Origin: an uncultured Pelagibacteraceae bacterium
Lineage (GTDB): Bacteria; Pseudomonadota; Alphaproteobacteria; Pelagibacterales; Pelagibacteraceae
Length of the DNA: 64,000 nucleotides
NCBI GenBank assembly: GCA_902572605.1
Contig: CACGGD010000002.1
Span: forward strand, 124,001-188,000
Direction: 5' to 3'
Shown: positions 40,678-63,974 of the stretch, piece by piece
Layout of the letters: every line of letters starts with the position of its first letter
Position numbering within the stretch: position 1 is the stretch's first letter
Translations under genes and position numbers: made by a program
Notes under the pieces: model-generated
Told to the model about the DNA's origin: nothing
Seen by the model: the letters and a program-made list of their open reading frames with translations, nothing else
Database searches by the model: none

Positions 40678-41532
40678 TTATCTGTTAATTCCTCTTATTC
40701 TTTCAGACCTTCTCCTTAAAAGTTCTGCAGCAATCAAGACTAAAGTTGATAAAAGAATTAAACAAGTAGCAACAGATAATATTGTTGGACTTAGTTGTTC
40801 TCTCAAGCCAGTCCACATTTGAATTGGAATAGTTGTATTATCTAATCCAGCTAAGAATAACACAATAACAACTTCGTCAAAAGATGTAACAAATGCAAAT
40901 AAAGCTCCAGAAATAACTCCAGGTAAAATAAGTGGTAGCGTTATTTTCATGAAAGTGTTTACAGGGTTGCTTCCAAGACTTGCTGCAGCTCTTGTAACAC
41001 TATGATCAAATCCTGATAATGTAGCAGTAACTGTAATTACTACGAATGGAGTTCCCAATATTATATGTGCTAACACTATTCCTGTGTGAGTTGCTGCTAA
41101 GCCTGCTTTAGCCATAAAAAAGAAAATTGCTACTCCTGAAATAATTAATGGAACAATCATAGGGGAAATTAAAGTAGCCATTATTATTCCTTTATAAGGC
41201 ATATATCTGCTGCTTAATCCCAAGGCTGCAACTGTTCCAAGAATAACAGCTCCTATTGTTGCAAATATTGCTATAAAAAAACTATTTTTTGCAGCTAATC
41301 CCCAAGGATTTTTTGTTCCATAAACCATGTCCTTATACCACCTTAAAGAGAAAGCATCTGGATCTAATCTTTTCATTCCATCTGTTATTACTAAAAATTC
41401 TTCTGCATTAAATGATAATGGAAAAATTACAAACAAAGGTGCAATTAAAAAGAAAAAAACACAACCGCATATAAAAAGATAAAAATAATGCCATACTCTA
41501 TAATGTGGTTCTGTATATTTTGGTAAAGCCAT
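40678..41532 (-). CDS. ABC transporter permease (PotC-like)
   Basis: Multi-TM; RAAASLGSNPVNTFMKITLPLILPGVISGALFAFVTSFDEVVIVLFL. Confidence 0.9.
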   Translation of the reverse strand: MALPKYTEPHYRVWHYFYLFICGCVFFFLIAPLFVIFPLSFNAEEFLVITDGMKRLDPDAFSLRWYKDMVYGTKNPWGLAAKNSFFIAIFATIGAVILGTVAALGLSSRYMPYKGIIMATLISPMIVPLIISGVAIFFFMAKAGLAATHTGIVLAHIILGTPFVVITVTATLSGFDHSVTRAAASLGSNPVNTFMKITLPLILPGVISGALFAFVTSFDEVVIVLFLAGLDNTTIPIQMWTGLREQLSPTILSVATCLILLSTLVLIAAELLRRRSERIRGINR

Positions 41533-41534
41533 AT

Positions 41535-42788
41535 TTATCCTAATTTTATATTATCAATTCCTACTAATTTATTGTACACCCAGTAAACAGCTAGCACGCC
41601 AACTAATAGCATTAGCCCCATTGCCGATGCAAAACTCCAATCTAAAGTATATTTCATATGATAAGCAATTTGATTGCTTATAAGTGTTCCTGAAGCTCCT
41701 CCAACTAATTCTGGAGTAATATAGTATCCTATCGCAAGAATAAAAACTAAAAGAGAACCAGCACCTATTCCTGGTATAGTTAATGGAAAATATACCTTCC
41801 AAAAAGTTATAAATGGTGTTCCTCCCAAAGATTTACCTGCTCTAACTAAACTTGGTGAAATAGTTTTCATTACGCTATAAAGAGGTAAAACCATAAATGG
41901 TAACAAAATTTGAGTCATGGCAATATAAGTTCCTGTTTCGTTGTACATCATCACCAATCTTTTATCGTCTGCTACAAGACCAATCCAAACTAAAAAATCA
42001 TTAACTACTCCTTGCTGTTGAAGTAAAATCATCCAACTTGCAGTTCTGACAAGCAATGAAGTCCAGAAAGGTAAAAGAACACAAATCATTAACAAATTGC
42101 TATATTTCATAGGAAGAGTCGCTAGCAAATGAGCTATTGGGTAAGCCATCAAAAAACAAAATAGGGTGACATAAAAAGCTATTTTTAAAGTTCTAACCCA
42201 TAATTTCTTATAAATTCTTCGATCTTCTTCAACTTGAACTATTTTTCCATCTTCATTTTGATACATGTCGACGCCCTTTAAATATTTAGAATATGAATAA
42301 GCTGGTGCACGTCTTTGAATTGCTCTCCAATATTCAACATCTCCCCATCTTTCATGAACAGCCATAATTTGTTCTTTATAATTTCCTTCTTCAAAAGATT
42401 TTGATTTTCGTCTTAATTTTTTAATGATACTTTTAAAACCATTTTTAGTGTAATTAAGTTGAGTTGATAATTTTCCCTCTCTTTCTTCTTCGATTAATTT
42501 TTGAAAATCAAAATAAAAAGCTTCGAATACTTTTTCTGATGGAAGTTCTTTACCATCCCAATCTTCCATTGCTTTGAATGTTTTTGGAAGTGCATTGGTT
42601 ACCATTCGATCATCAACGCTATTAAAAAGCATTCCAACTATTGGAGAAATATATACAATTAATAAAAAAAGTAACAAGGGAGCAACAAGAAGAAAAGCTT
42701 TTAATTTATTTCTTCTTTCAACTTTTTTAAGGCTTACCTCTAGAGGTATTCCATCAGTTGTTAAAATTTGTTGTGTTTCACTGCTCAT
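41535..42788 (-). CDS. ABC transporter permease (PotB-like) with long N-terminal extracytoplasmic insertion
   Basis: RAGKSLGGTPFITFWKVYFPLTIPGIGAGSLLVFILAIGYYITPELVGG; 417 aa with ~130-residue hydrophilic insert after TM1. Confidence 0.9.
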   Translation of the reverse strand: MSSETQQILTTDGIPLEVSLKKVERRNKLKAFLLVAPLLLFLLIVYISPIVGMLFNSVDDRMVTNALPKTFKAMEDWDGKELPSEKVFEAFYFDFQKLIEEEREGKLSTQLNYTKNGFKSIIKKLRRKSKSFEEGNYKEQIMAVHERWGDVEYWRAIQRRAPAYSYSKYLKGVDMYQNEDGKIVQVEEDRRIYKKLWVRTLKIAFYVTLFCFLMAYPIAHLLATLPMKYSNLLMICVLLPFWTSLLVRTASWMILLQQQGVVNDFLVWIGLVADDKRLVMMYNETGTYIAMTQILLPFMVLPLYSVMKTISPSLVRAGKSLGGTPFITFWKVYFPLTIPGIGAGSLLVFILAIGYYITPELVGGASGTLISNQIAYHMKYTLDWSFASAMGLMLLVGVLAVYWVYNKLVGIDNIKLG

Positions 42789-42796
42789 AAATAAAA

Positions 42797-42821
42797 AGGG
42801 CGGTTAGTTTATAACCGCCCT
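42797..42821 (-). terminator. GC-rich terminator-like hairpin between substrate-binding-protein gene and permease gene
   Basis: AGGGCGGTTA-GTTTA-TAACCGCCCT (perfect 10-bp stem, 5-nt loop), followed on minus strand by TTTTATTT then ATG of the permease. Confidence 0.75.
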
Positions 42822-42856: not shown

Positions 42857-43975
42857 TTAAAGACCAGATTTCATAGCTTCCCATTTTTCGCCAATTTCTG
42901 TGCCGTTGTCAGCCCAGAATAATGCATCAATTAGGATATAGCTTTTTGTATTGTTTGGATGAGTTGGCATTTGAGTCATCATGTTTGTTTTACCATCTTT
43001 GTACCATGGTTCACCCGCTTCAATAACTTTTAGAGAAGATTTTCTCCAAGGTGCGTAAGCAATGTACTTCGCAGAACCAGCTAAACCTTCTGTGCTAGTC
43101 ATTTCCGCAATTGCTTTCATTGCATCAGATTCATTTGGTCCACCTTTTACAACTACCATGTATTGGTAATCTAAACCTTGAGCATCCCAAACTTGTTTTA
43201 ATGGTGCGCCTTCTCCAACTTCTGCGTTAAAGAATCTACCATTCCAACCTGTTGCCATTACAACTTCACCCTGCATAAGTAGTTCAGGTGGTTTTGCACC
43301 AGCTGACCAAAATACACATCCGCCGTTAGGGTCCTTGCAAAGAGCTTCCATCTTATCCATTGCTTTTTTTAGACCTTTTTCCTTTGAAAGTTGTTTGTAA
43401 ATTTTCTTTCCACCTTTACCTGGCTTAGTTCCAGAAGCTGCTAATGCCATCTCTAGATTGTGCATAGCACTTTTGTAAACACCTCTTTTACCTGGCCATG
43501 TTTTAGTGTCAAAGAAATCTTTTATAGTTTTTGGTTTTTTGCTTCCGATTTTTGAATCGTTATAAGCATATGTCCAAGAATATAAAATATTCCCTACAGC
43601 ACAATCACTAGGCATTGACGTAAAGAAATCTTTGCTCGCTTTAGTTCCATCTGGAGCTGGCGGAAAGTCTTTGTCAAAATCAAATTTAACAAATAAACCT
43701 TCGTCACATCCATTGATAGTGTCCATAGCGAAAACGTCCATTATGTCCCAAGTAATTTTTCCTGCTGCTTTTTGAGCTTTAACTTCAGATAATCCGCCTG
43801 AATAGTCTACCCAGTTAATAGGTATACCTAGTTTTTTTGCAGATGGATCACCATAACCTAATTTTTGACTTTCAGTATAAGCTCCACCCCAAGATGCAAC
43901 CGTAACTGCATATGAAGTTGAAGAAATTGAAAGTGCAAAAACCAAAGTAAGTAATAGTTTACTTAATTTTCTCAT
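42857..43975 (-). CDS. ABC transporter periplasmic substrate-binding protein (PotD-like)
   Basis: Signal peptide MRKLSKLLLTLVFALSISSTSYA; VTVASWGGAYTESQKLGY; strong SD (GGAGGGG) upstream. Confidence 0.92.
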   Translation of the reverse strand: MRKLSKLLLTLVFALSISSTSYAVTVASWGGAYTESQKLGYGDPSAKKLGIPINWVDYSGGLSEVKAQKAAGKITWDIMDVFAMDTINGCDEGLFVKFDFDKDFPPAPDGTKASKDFFTSMPSDCAVGNILYSWTYAYNDSKIGSKKPKTIKDFFDTKTWPGKRGVYKSAMHNLEMALAASGTKPGKGGKKIYKQLSKEKGLKKAMDKMEALCKDPNGGCVFWSAGAKPPELLMQGEVVMATGWNGRFFNAEVGEGAPLKQVWDAQGLDYQYMVVVKGGPNESDAMKAIAEMTSTEGLAGSAKYIAYAPWRKSSLKVIEAGEPWYKDGKTNMMTQMPTHPNNTKSYILIDALFWADNGTEIGEKWEAMKSGL

Positions 43976-44094: not shown

Positions 44095-45189
44095 TCAGAT
44101 TGATTTTGGATCTAAAGCTCTAGCATCATTACTGTTCCAACCTACATTAATTTCATTACCAGGTTTTATATCCATTCTTGCTGAGCTATTTGGAACTTTT
44201 AAAATAAATTCTTTATTGCCCAACAAATTTAACCTAACTCTTGCATGATCTCCGTGGTAAATAACTTCCTCTATTTTCCCTTTATGTTTGTTATCCATTT
44301 TTTCTTCTGGATCTATTATCGCCCTCTCAGGTCTCAATGAAACTTTAGTTTTTTCTCCCTTTGTTTTTACCCTTATCGGATTAGAAATTATTTCAGCGCC
44401 AGTATCTAGTTTAACTTTACATTTACCTCCTGAGATATCTGTCACTTGTCCAGAAAAAGTATTGTTCTCTCCTATAAACTCTGCAACAAATGAATTGACT
44501 GGTTCTTCATATAATTTATCTGGACTTGATAGTTGTTGAACTTTCCCATCATTAAATACTGCAATTCTACTAGACATGGTAAGAGCTTCGCTTTGATCAT
44601 GAGTGACATAAACTACAGTTACACCAATATTTTCGTGAATATGTTTTATCTCATACTGCATACTTTCTCTTAAATTTTTATCTAAAGCTCCTAATGGTTC
44701 ATCCATTAAAACTAATTGAGGGTCAAATACTAGAGATCTTGCAACAGCAACTCTTTGCTGTTGTCCCCCTGAGAGTTGATTAGGCATTCTTTTTTCAAAT
44801 CCAGATAAAGAAACCATAGATAAAGCTTTATCAACTTTTTTATCAATATCATCTTTTGAAAGCTTTCTAACTTTTAGAGGAAAAGCTAAATTTTCATAAA
44901 CTGTCAGATGAGGAAATAAAGCATAATTTTGAAAAACCATTCCAATTCCTCTTTTATGAGGTGGAATTCTAGAAATAGGTTTTGAGTCTAAATAAATTTC
45001 ACCGTTAGTTGGTGTTTCAAAACCTGCTAACATCATTAAGCAAGTTGTTTTTCCTGATCCGGATGGTCCCAGCATTGTAATAAATTCACCTTCGTTGATA
45101 TCAAGATTTAAGTCTTTAACGACTAAAACTTTACCATCATAACTTTTGTCTACTTTATCAAATTTTACAAAGCTTTTTGAAGACGTCAT
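44095..45189 (-). CDS. ABC transporter ATP-binding protein (PotA-like)
   Basis: LGPSGSGKTTCLMMLAGFETP, LSGGQQQRVAVARSLVFDPQLVLMDEPLGALD, C-terminal TOBE domain. Confidence 0.94.
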   Translation of the reverse strand: MTSSKSFVKFDKVDKSYDGKVLVVKDLNLDINEGEFITMLGPSGSGKTTCLMMLAGFETPTNGEIYLDSKPISRIPPHKRGIGMVFQNYALFPHLTVYENLAFPLKVRKLSKDDIDKKVDKALSMVSLSGFEKRMPNQLSGGQQQRVAVARSLVFDPQLVLMDEPLGALDKNLRESMQYEIKHIHENIGVTVVYVTHDQSEALTMSSRIAVFNDGKVQQLSSPDKLYEEPVNSFVAEFIGENNTFSGQVTDISGGKCKVKLDTGAEIISNPIRVKTKGEKTKVSLRPERAIIDPEEKMDNKHKGKIEEVIYHGDHARVRLNLLGNKEFILKVPNSSARMDIKPGNEINVGWNSNDARALDPKSI

Positions 45190-45236: not shown

Positions 45237-46403
45237 TTATTTAATATGTAATTCTCGAGATAAATTACAGAATAATTCTGAACCTTTCTCAGTTACTCTT
45301 ACTGCCTCACTAGATTCTACCCCCCAACCGTCGAACTGCATTACTGCAATCATATGAAAAGTAACGTTAGGTTGTAAAATGGTTTTATCTCCTTTTAATA
45401 TATTGAATGTTTGCTCTCCCCAATCAGGTGGGTAGCCAATTCCAATTGAGTAACCGGTTCTTGAGTCTTTTTTAATTTTATATTTATCTAAAACCCCCCA
45501 AAATTTCTGTGCAACATCATCAATGGTATTTCCAGGTTTTGTAACATCAATACCAGCATCCAGTGCTTCATTAGTGGCTTTCATTGTGTCAATTTTTTTT
45601 TGATCTTTTTTACCGAGCAAAACTGTTCGAGCCATTGGACAATGGTATCTTTTATAAGCACCAGCTATTTCAATAATAGTTGCCTCACCTGAAACAAATT
45701 TTTCTTCAGTAGCTGTTAAATGTGAAGCTGATGTTCCTTTTCCCGTCGGTAATAAAGTTGCAATACTAGGGTAGTCGCCACCAAATTCTTTTGTTCCATT
45801 AAATAAAGCTTTTTGGATTTCTGCTACAGCATCGCATTGTCTTACTCCAGGATTGATACTTTTAAACGCAGTTTTCATTCCATTTTCCACTATACGAGCT
45901 GCTGATTGCATTAATTTAATTTCTGTATCTGATTTTACAACTCGAACCCAATTAACTAATCTTTCGGCATCTTTGAACTTCGCATTTGGCAAACCTTTTT
46001 TAATAGTTTCATAGCAAAAAGCTGTAAAATAATGACTATCCATTTCTAAACCGATATTAAGATTATCCCACTTTTTTTTTTTAATTATTTTAACTAAGTA
46101 CTGATAAGGATGTAGAGGCCAAGTATGAATATACTTTTCATTATACTGGATAATATTTTTACCTTTTAAATATGTTTTGATATATGCTCCTCCTGCATCT
46201 TGGGCTCGTACAAAACAAACAGGTTCATCTTCGTTAACATGAACTAAAACACACTGCGCATAATAAAAAGACCAAGCATCATAACCAGTTAAATAATTCA
46301 TATTTGCTGGATCATGGGATACAAGAAGATCTATGCCTTTTTTTTGCATATCGATTTTGACCTTTTTTAAACGATCTTTGTACTCTTGTTTTTCAAAAAG
46401 CAT
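45237..46403 (-). CDS. M24-family Xaa-Pro-like hydrolase, ectoine hydrolase (DoeA)-like
   Basis: DLLVSHDPANMNYLTGYDAWSFYYAQCVLV, IEIAGAYKRYHCPMARTVLLGK, GYSIGIGYPPDWGEQ. Confidence 0.75.
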   Translation of the reverse strand: MLFEKQEYKDRLKKVKIDMQKKGIDLLVSHDPANMNYLTGYDAWSFYYAQCVLVHVNEDEPVCFVRAQDAGGAYIKTYLKGKNIIQYNEKYIHTWPLHPYQYLVKIIKKKKWDNLNIGLEMDSHYFTAFCYETIKKGLPNAKFKDAERLVNWVRVVKSDTEIKLMQSAARIVENGMKTAFKSINPGVRQCDAVAEIQKALFNGTKEFGGDYPSIATLLPTGKGTSASHLTATEEKFVSGEATIIEIAGAYKRYHCPMARTVLLGKKDQKKIDTMKATNEALDAGIDVTKPGNTIDDVAQKFWGVLDKYKIKKDSRTGYSIGIGYPPDWGEQTFNILKGDKTILQPNVTFHMIAVMQFDGWGVESSEAVRVTEKGSELFCNLSRELHIK

Positions 46404-62599: not shown

Positions 62600-63274
62600 T
62601 TAATTTGTTCCCATTTTTTTTTCAGCAAACTTAATAAAGTTATGTATGAGAAAAGTCAAAAATAAATATATACTTCCGGCAACAATAAAAACCTCCACAG
62701 GCTTGAAAGTAGTAGAAATGATATATTTTGCTACTCCTGTTAAATCCATTAAAGTTACTGTGCTCGCTAACGAAGTACCTTTCAACATTAATATAATTTC
62801 ATTTCCATAAGCAGGTAAAGATTGTTTAATAGCTATCGGTATCTGTATCTTGTAAAATATTATTTTGTTTGAAATTCCTAGGCTTTTTCCAGCTTCAATA
62901 AATCCTGGTTTAATTGTTTGAAAAGCTGATCTTAAAATTTCAGAAGTATATGCTCCAGTGTTAAGTGAAAAAGCTATAATCGCACACCAGTATGGTTCCT
63001 TTAAAACAGTCCATAAAATTGTTGATCTTAAATATTCAATTTGCCCTAATCCAAAATAAATAATAAATATCTGGACCAAAAGTGGAGTACCTCTGAATAC
63101 ATATGAAAAACTATAAGAAAAATTAGCAATAATCTTTTTCTTGCTTAATCTCATAATAGCAAAGATCAAACCAAGGATTAAACCAAAAATAAGTGATAGC
63201 GATAAAAGTTTTAAAGTTGTTAAAGTGGCACTCAATAACTTTGGAAAACTATTAATCATTAAATCTAAATCCAT
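62600..63274 (-). CDS. Polar amino-acid ABC transporter permease (HisM/GlnP family)
   Basis: VFRGTPLLVQIFIIYFGLG, NTGAYTSEILRSAFQTIKPGFIEAGKSLGIS. Confidence 0.92.
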   Translation of the reverse strand: MDLDLMINSFPKLLSATLTTLKLLSLSLIFGLILGLIFAIMRLSKKKIIANFSYSFSYVFRGTPLLVQIFIIYFGLGQIEYLRSTILWTVLKEPYWCAIIAFSLNTGAYTSEILRSAFQTIKPGFIEAGKSLGISNKIIFYKIQIPIAIKQSLPAYGNEIILMLKGTSLASTVTLMDLTGVAKYIISTTFKPVEVFIVAGSIYLFLTFLIHNFIKFAEKKMGTN

Positions 63275-63966
63275 TAAAAACCTCTGCTATATTTATTTTC
63301 TAATTTATTTAATATCTTCATACTTACGAAAGTTAAAATTAGATATAAAAGTGCTGCGAAAGAATAAAAAAATAAAGGATCTCTAGTAGATCCTGCCGCA
63401 ATATAAGATTGCCTCATTATTTCAACTAATCCAGTAACCGAAATTAAAGAGGTATCTTTTAATGTAATTTGCCAAACATTGCTTAAGTTTGGTATCGCTA
63501 ACCTTAGCATTTGAGGAATTATGACTTTTAAAAAGTAAATAAATTTTTTAAAGCCTAAAGCTTTGCAAGCTTCGAATTGTCCTCTGTCTATGGATTGAAT
63601 AGCCCCTCTAAAAACTTCTGTAGAATAAGCTCCAGAAATTATACCAATTGCAAATGATCCCGTAATAAAAGCATTAATTTCTATATACTTATTGTATCCG
63701 AACATACTCGCGACAAACATGACAGCGCCGCTTCCTCCAAAAAATAATAGATAAATTACTAATAGTTCAGGTACACCTCTAATAACAGTAGTATAAAAAT
63801 TAGAAATAAAATTTAGTACTTTGTTGTTAGATAATTTTAAAGGAGTAAAAACTATTGAAAACAATATTCCAATGAACATAGCTGTTATCGAAACAGCTAT
63901 TGTCATTAAAAATGCTACAAATAGTTCATCACCCCAACCTTTTGTTCCAAAATAAAGAAGTTCCAT
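63274..63966 (-). CDS. Polar amino-acid ABC transporter permease (HisQ family)
   Basis: VIRGVPELLVIYLLFFGG, GAYSTEVFRGAIQSIDRGQFEACKALGF, DTSLISVTGLVEIMRQS. Confidence 0.92.
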   Translation of the reverse strand: MELLYFGTKGWGDELFVAFLMTIAVSITAMFIGILFSIVFTPLKLSNNKVLNFISNFYTTVIRGVPELLVIYLLFFGGSGAVMFVASMFGYNKYIEINAFITGSFAIGIISGAYSTEVFRGAIQSIDRGQFEACKALGFKKFIYFLKVIIPQMLRLAIPNLSNVWQITLKDTSLISVTGLVEIMRQSYIAAGSTRDPLFFYSFAALLYLILTFVSMKILNKLENKYSRGF

Positions 63967-63974
63967 AAAGAAAA

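Follow-up and report, generated by a model that had tools for sequence, protein, structure and literature searches.

Introduction

In the stretch of DNA analysed here, 64,000 nt from an uncultured member of the Pelagibacteraceae (referred to as the window), two ABC transporter operons carry a hairpin between the gene of the substrate-binding protein (SBP) and that of the permease. The question raised by this locus is what such a hairpin does for its operon, and whether the element lies in the word that the two stems share or in the place where they stand. Among the heterotrophic plankton of the oceans, SAR11 bacteria are reported to be the most abundant, and their binding proteins rank with the most abundant proteins found in surface seawater. 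Transporters that depend on a binding protein need it in excess over the permease. PotD, the SBP of the first operon, is reported to be one of the most abundant proteins of SAR11 (PMC8437039).

Hairpins in the window

The features of the two operons are as follows.

40678-41532, minus strand, PotC-like permease gene
41535-42788, minus strand, PotB-like permease gene, directly downstream of hairpin 1
42789-42796, minus strand, U-rich tail of hairpin 1, TTTTATTT, spanning from the hairpin to the permease start codon
42797-42821, minus strand, hairpin 1, 10-bp stem AGGGCGGTTA/TAACCGCCCT with a 5-nt loop, TAAAC
42857-43975, minus strand, PotD-like SBP gene (SBP_bac_8), upstream of hairpin 1, with the Shine-Dalgarno sequence GGAGG
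44095-45189, minus strand, PotA-like ATPase gene, upstream of the PotD-like gene and in the same direction
62600-63274, minus strand, second amino-acid permease gene (HisM/ArtM position), PF00528 match at G000:C2:186612-187184
63274-63966, minus strand, HisQ/ArtQ-type permease gene, directly downstream of hairpin 2
63967-63974, minus strand, U-rich tail of hairpin 2, TTTTCTTT, spanning from the hairpin to the HisQ-like start codon
63975-63995, minus strand, hairpin 2, GGCGGTTATTTCATAACCGCC, near the window edge
L003:4012-4866, beyond the window edge, HisJ/ArgT-type SBP gene, whose end lies 15 nt before hairpin 2

An earlier note on this DNA had described a hairpin that ends 8 nt short of the PotB-like start codon. 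It is present at 42797-42821, 35 nt 3' of the SBP stop codon and 8 nt 5' of the PotB-like ATG (at 42788), and folds far better than shuffled sequences (RNAfold, -17.4 kcal/mol, z = -3.9; 0 of 200 shuffles equally good); with its tail it was scored as terminator-like. The matching hairpin that the note placed before the HisQ-type permease was also found, with an 8-nt T-rich spacer (RNAfold, -16.6 kcal/mol, z = -5.5), 15 nt 3' of the HisJ-like stop codon and 8 nt 5' of the HisQ-like ATG (at 63966). The 5-nt loop ascribed to it holds only if the 8-bp core alone is counted; RNAfold adds a ninth pair, which leaves 3 nt. Seven of the eight nucleotides in either tail are T. Both sites thus have the make-up of an intrinsic terminator, a GC-rich stem of suitable length with a U-tract directly 3', as well as the layout of a malE-malF-type element, a stable hairpin directly 3' of an SBP gene and before the next gene of the transporter operon. 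The 8 nt between stem and ATG leave no room for a separate promoter 3' of either hairpin, so that transcription of the permease genes must depend on read-through or on a promoter inside the SBP gene.

Bar one hairpin within a tRNA sequence, these two are the sole strong intergenic hairpins of the window. An Rfam search of the window matched tRNAs alone, with no family above its gathering score at hairpins 1 or 2. The pattern GGCGGT-N3-15-ACCGCC occurred twice in the window (0 matches in 100 shuffles), and the genome-wide search proposed in the note returned two copies of GGCGGT...ACCGCC in the 909-kb assembly of this genome, namely hairpins 1 and 2, each between an SBP gene and a permease gene. 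With only two copies in the assembly, GGCGGTTA was rejected as a genome-wide repeat or uptake-type signal.

The PotD-like gene has a Shine-Dalgarno sequence and neither the PotB-like nor the HisQ-like permease gene has one, as the note had stated. As a sign of special control this absence is uninformative, because a Shine-Dalgarno sequence of at least 4 nt precedes only 14 of the 64 genes of the window.

Regarding the surrounding genes, Pelagibacteraceae single-cell genomes encode close homologues of the PotD-like protein, with identities of up to 99%. At about 420 aa, the PotB-like permease has a long N-terminal extension, found in both SAR11 families (window 41535-42788, minus strand; L196:3515-4798, minus strand), and PotB models match it only from about residue 180-190 onward. 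A relative of the DoeA/EutD-like ectoine hydrolases, scoring below the curated cut-off, adjoins the PotA-like gene (45237-46403, minus strand).

Hairpins at SBP junctions across the genome

SBP junctions were gathered via the ABC permeases (PF00528, PF02653) and the TRAP DctP gene, together with their neighbourhoods, and were scanned in coding orientation for stems of at least 8 bp with at least 4 GC pairs; this orientation counts the G-U pairs of minus-strand transcripts, e.g., at the AapJ junction. The background was a 264-kb sample of the 82%-complete assembly (200 kb of contig C1 plus the 64-kb window). SBP labels were assigned after the hairpins had been seen, but by gene family, and both negative junctions were counted.

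A hairpin was found at eight of the ten SBP junctions: PotD, HisJ, LivK, AapJ, NMT1-type, SBP_bac_1-type, PstS and TRAP DctP. The predicted free energies of these eight range from -12 to -21 kcal/mol, and the stems follow the SBP stop codon at 14-35 nt. From the hairpin to the next start codon there are 8-41 nt overall, and 12-41 nt at most junctions other than those of hairpins 1 and 2. Several hairpins besides these two also have U-rich tails. No hairpin was found at any of the approximately 200 other co-directional protein-gene junctions in the 264 kb; among the 208 co-directional junctions of C1:1-200000 and the window, the only other passes were tRNA, tmRNA and RNase P RNA. With only gaps of at least 20 nt considered, the ratio is 8/10 for SBP junctions versus 0/48 for all others (Fisher p ~2e-8). 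The idea of a reusable cis-element was therefore borne out as far as the hairpin is concerned, which is specific to the junction of an SBP gene with the next gene, a membrane-component or ATPase gene of its transporter. It failed for the word GGCGGTTA, since other SBP junctions use other stems (several sequences, of which AAAAGGGGGC is common to two junctions) and the His stem changes among relatives with its pairing kept.

The same scan found no hairpin at the GltI-like and FbpA junctions of this genome. The GltI-like SBP-permease junction (L075:2100-2140) is consistently without one in the inspected relatives too (such as L043, L045, L047, L048, L050, L052, L054-L056), its permease often starts with GTG, and it offers a natural negative control. 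The gap between the FbpA-like and FbpB-like genes (L076:8816-9003, contig C7 of this genome) holds an ORF of about 50 codons instead, with a good Shine-Dalgarno sequence (GAGGAG) and a CxxC motif (MNINFNKLKTGCSPCMREAEKMKQ...).

Strong hairpins were also seen at two genes other than SBP genes:

L081:16798-16830 (C1:36798-36830), after a metY-like enzyme gene
L080:6603-6639, at a convergent gene end beside a porin-like gene

A few highly expressed non-SBP genes may thus share strong 3' hairpins, and in view of these two sites a position after highly expressed genes is not fully separable from a position after SBP genes.

Conservation among relatives

At the PotD-PotB junction the stem was kept in 80 of 80 Pelagibacteraceae junctions, the most distant of them at about 75% protein identity; loops vary, and the T-rich tail is retained within the genus. 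These 80, like the 30 Pst loci below, were drawn from related genomes and are not independent events. The six GC pairs of this stem showed zero changes in 80 genomes (window 42797-42821, L090-L169); the His and Pst stems drift at a similar degree of protein divergence.

A hairpin just 5' of the permease start was present in all 13 HisJ-HisQ loci of the genus, where the stem varies from GGCGGTTA to GGCGGTTTA, AGGCGGCAA and TGGGCAATAA. Across 14 hand-registered sequences, including one of another family and checked against their loci, all eight core pairs are standard in each and seven of the eight are changed on both sides, i.e., by compensatory change. In the diverged relatives L039-L042 the His hairpin is present and its U-tract is lost. 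The PstS-PstC junction has a hairpin in 30 of 30 loci, with several different stems and compensated pairing, so that conserved pairing with compensatory change, as expected of a malE-malF-type element, is found at both His and Pst.

In another SAR11 family of the same order (f2), represented by one genome (G037), hairpins were found at six of the seven SBP junctions scanned (OpuAC, PstS, PhnD, PotD, HisJ and PotF-type), the FbpA junction having none. The PotD stem of this family, ACTTGGGCAACC/GGTTGCCCAAGT, is unrelated to the Pot stem of the window; several hairpins of the family, those of Pot and Pst among them, have no U-tract. The U-tract is thus not conserved along with the stem at orthologous sites (His in L039-L042; Pot and Pst in f2). 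A sequence-specific repeat family built on GGCGGTTA was rejected as well, there being two copies, with the word lost at His and at the Pot junction of f2. In G037 a 16-bp hairpin lies between two paralogous genes of small hydrophobic proteins (71 and 75 aa), just upstream of HisJ (L197:3878-4373).

What is conserved, then, is the position after the SBP stop codon and the pairing; what varies is the sequence of the stem, the presence of a U-tract and the spacing to the next start codon. This pattern indicates that the element acts on the 3' end of the SBP mRNA, rather than on the permease start codon or through a specific word.

Proposed function and alternatives

Our analysis shows where the hairpins lie, that they pair and are conserved, that they are specific for SBP junctions and that the U-tract is optional; what becomes of the RNA and what protein ratio results is proposed. 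We consider it probable that the hairpins are intra-operonic 3'-end elements of the SBP message, at which some transcripts would also terminate if a U-tract is attached. RNA polymerase would transcribe the SBP gene together with the hairpin and the permease gene as one operon, and a fraction of the transcripts would stop at the hairpin wherever a U-tract follows the stem, as at hairpins 1 and 2. The stem would then shield the SBP fragments, whether they arise from termination or from later cleavage downstream, against 3'-5' exonucleases; SBP mRNA would rise above permease mRNA and lead to an excess of the protein. The hairpin is in this way predicted to let SAR11 probably make far more SBP than permease, by a layout that recurs at most SAR11 SBP genes with unrelated stem sequences. 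Judged from the sequences, partial termination is likely where the U-tract is present, both window sites included, and exonuclease blocking would be the simplest role where it is absent.

Each half of this explanation can be taken on its own. If the hairpin and U-tract halted a fixed fraction of polymerases and had no other role, the U-rich tails at both window hairpins and several other SBP hairpins of the genome would be accounted for, as would the T-rich tail that PotD-PotB junctions retain within the genus; an element that only terminates is, however, not expected to persist where the U-tract is gone, as it does at His in L039-L042 and at Pot and Pst in f2, and such a pure terminator is rather unlikely. 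About as doubtful is a pure barrier of the malE-malF or REP-like kind, at which zero termination occurs and the stem merely protects cleaved SBP mRNA. It agrees with the dispensable U-tract across relatives and with comparable E. coli hairpins that lack U-tracts and were judged non-terminating (PMC5927463), but leaves unaccounted for the textbook U-tract at both window sites and several others, and its conservation at Pot across the genus sample. These two readings are halves of the combined explanation; the observations do not separate them, and our confidence in them overlaps with that in the whole.

The remaining alternatives place the function elsewhere. Of the functions suggested in the note, partial termination and 3'-end protection fit the element, and start-site occlusion is weak given the 8-41 nt between hairpin and start. 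Occlusion of permease initiation by a start-adjacent hairpin would suit hairpins 1 and 2, which end 8 nt 5' of an ATG that has no Shine-Dalgarno sequence; we regard it as improbable, given the 12-41 nt seen at most other SBP junctions and the fact that most genes of this genome have no Shine-Dalgarno sequence. Least credible of all, and very improbable, is a shared palindrome GGCGGTTA, copied as a mobile repeat or recognised by a protein, that links both operons. The exact word does occur at just these two places in the genome, and in the Pot stem all six GC pairs are unchanged across 80 junctions. Against this, the His stem arrived at GGCGGTTA within its own lineage (related states GGCGGTTTA and AGGCGGCAA), genome G077 carries GGCGGTTTA yet gave no PotD match, the Pot stem of f2 is unrelated, and equally long words are common to other unrelated junctions. 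In a crude simulation the chance that eight random stems share an 8-bp word was about 2%, and other junction pairs share words of 7-10 letters.

A wider and more tentative reading, somewhat less likely than not, is that SAR11, having few transcriptional regulators, fixes transporter stoichiometry by a near-universal rule, each SBP gene having its own 3' hairpin that hard-wires the ratio of SBP to permease in RNA, and lineages switching between leaky terminator and pure exonuclease barrier by gain or loss of the U-tract. Such a simple sequence rule for binding-protein overproduction from compact operons in streamlined genomes is testable in existing metatranscriptomes, and it carries the caution that SBP transcript counts are no proxy for transporter counts.

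Comparison with known systems

A search of open-licence papers with the terms used returned no description of SBP-junction hairpins in SAR11. The survey of structured RNAs in Ca. Pelagibacter ubique took only intergenic regions of more than 100 bp (PMC2704228), so that SBP spacers as short as those of this genome (45-84 nt) would lie outside its scope. The rhtB-associated motif described there (Meyer et al. 2009, PMC2704228) is also a SAR11 hairpin, with a poly-U track after about half of the examples, but differs in being bulged, in its conserved loop and in its locus. Leaky intrinsic terminators within operons share the GC-rich stem, short loop and U-tract with the SAR11 elements; in SAR11, in contrast, the stem is conserved across relatives and the U-tract is not.

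In the maltose, polyamine, arginine, histidine and methionine ABC operons of E. coli the SBP mRNA is a stabilised segment (Dar and Sorek 2018, PMC5927463), and most stabilised 5' segments in that species end just 3' of a stable, conserved hairpin without a U-tract (PMC5927463). The differentially decaying ABC operons of E. coli, Salmonella and Enterobacter (potD, artI, his, met; PMC5927463) thus concern the same transporter types, with the SBP segment stabilised and with stable, evolutionarily conserved hairpins marking the segment ends, as in SAR11. Their protective hairpins lie mostly inside the downstream coding sequence and have no U-tracts, whereas those of SAR11 are intergenic and often have one. 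The closest layout is the malE-malF structure of the E. coli malEFG operon, known for segmental mRNA stability, where a stable hairpin likewise stands between an SBP gene and a permease gene and the SBP is needed in excess; SAR11 differs in that there is usually a single perfect hairpin, often with a U-tract, and in its repetition at most SBP junctions. The principle is therefore known from E. coli, and its near-genome-wide use in SAR11 is not mentioned in the literature searched. The SAR11 pattern is, in our analysis, best read as operon polarity of the malE-malF type that appears to be applied almost genome-wide.
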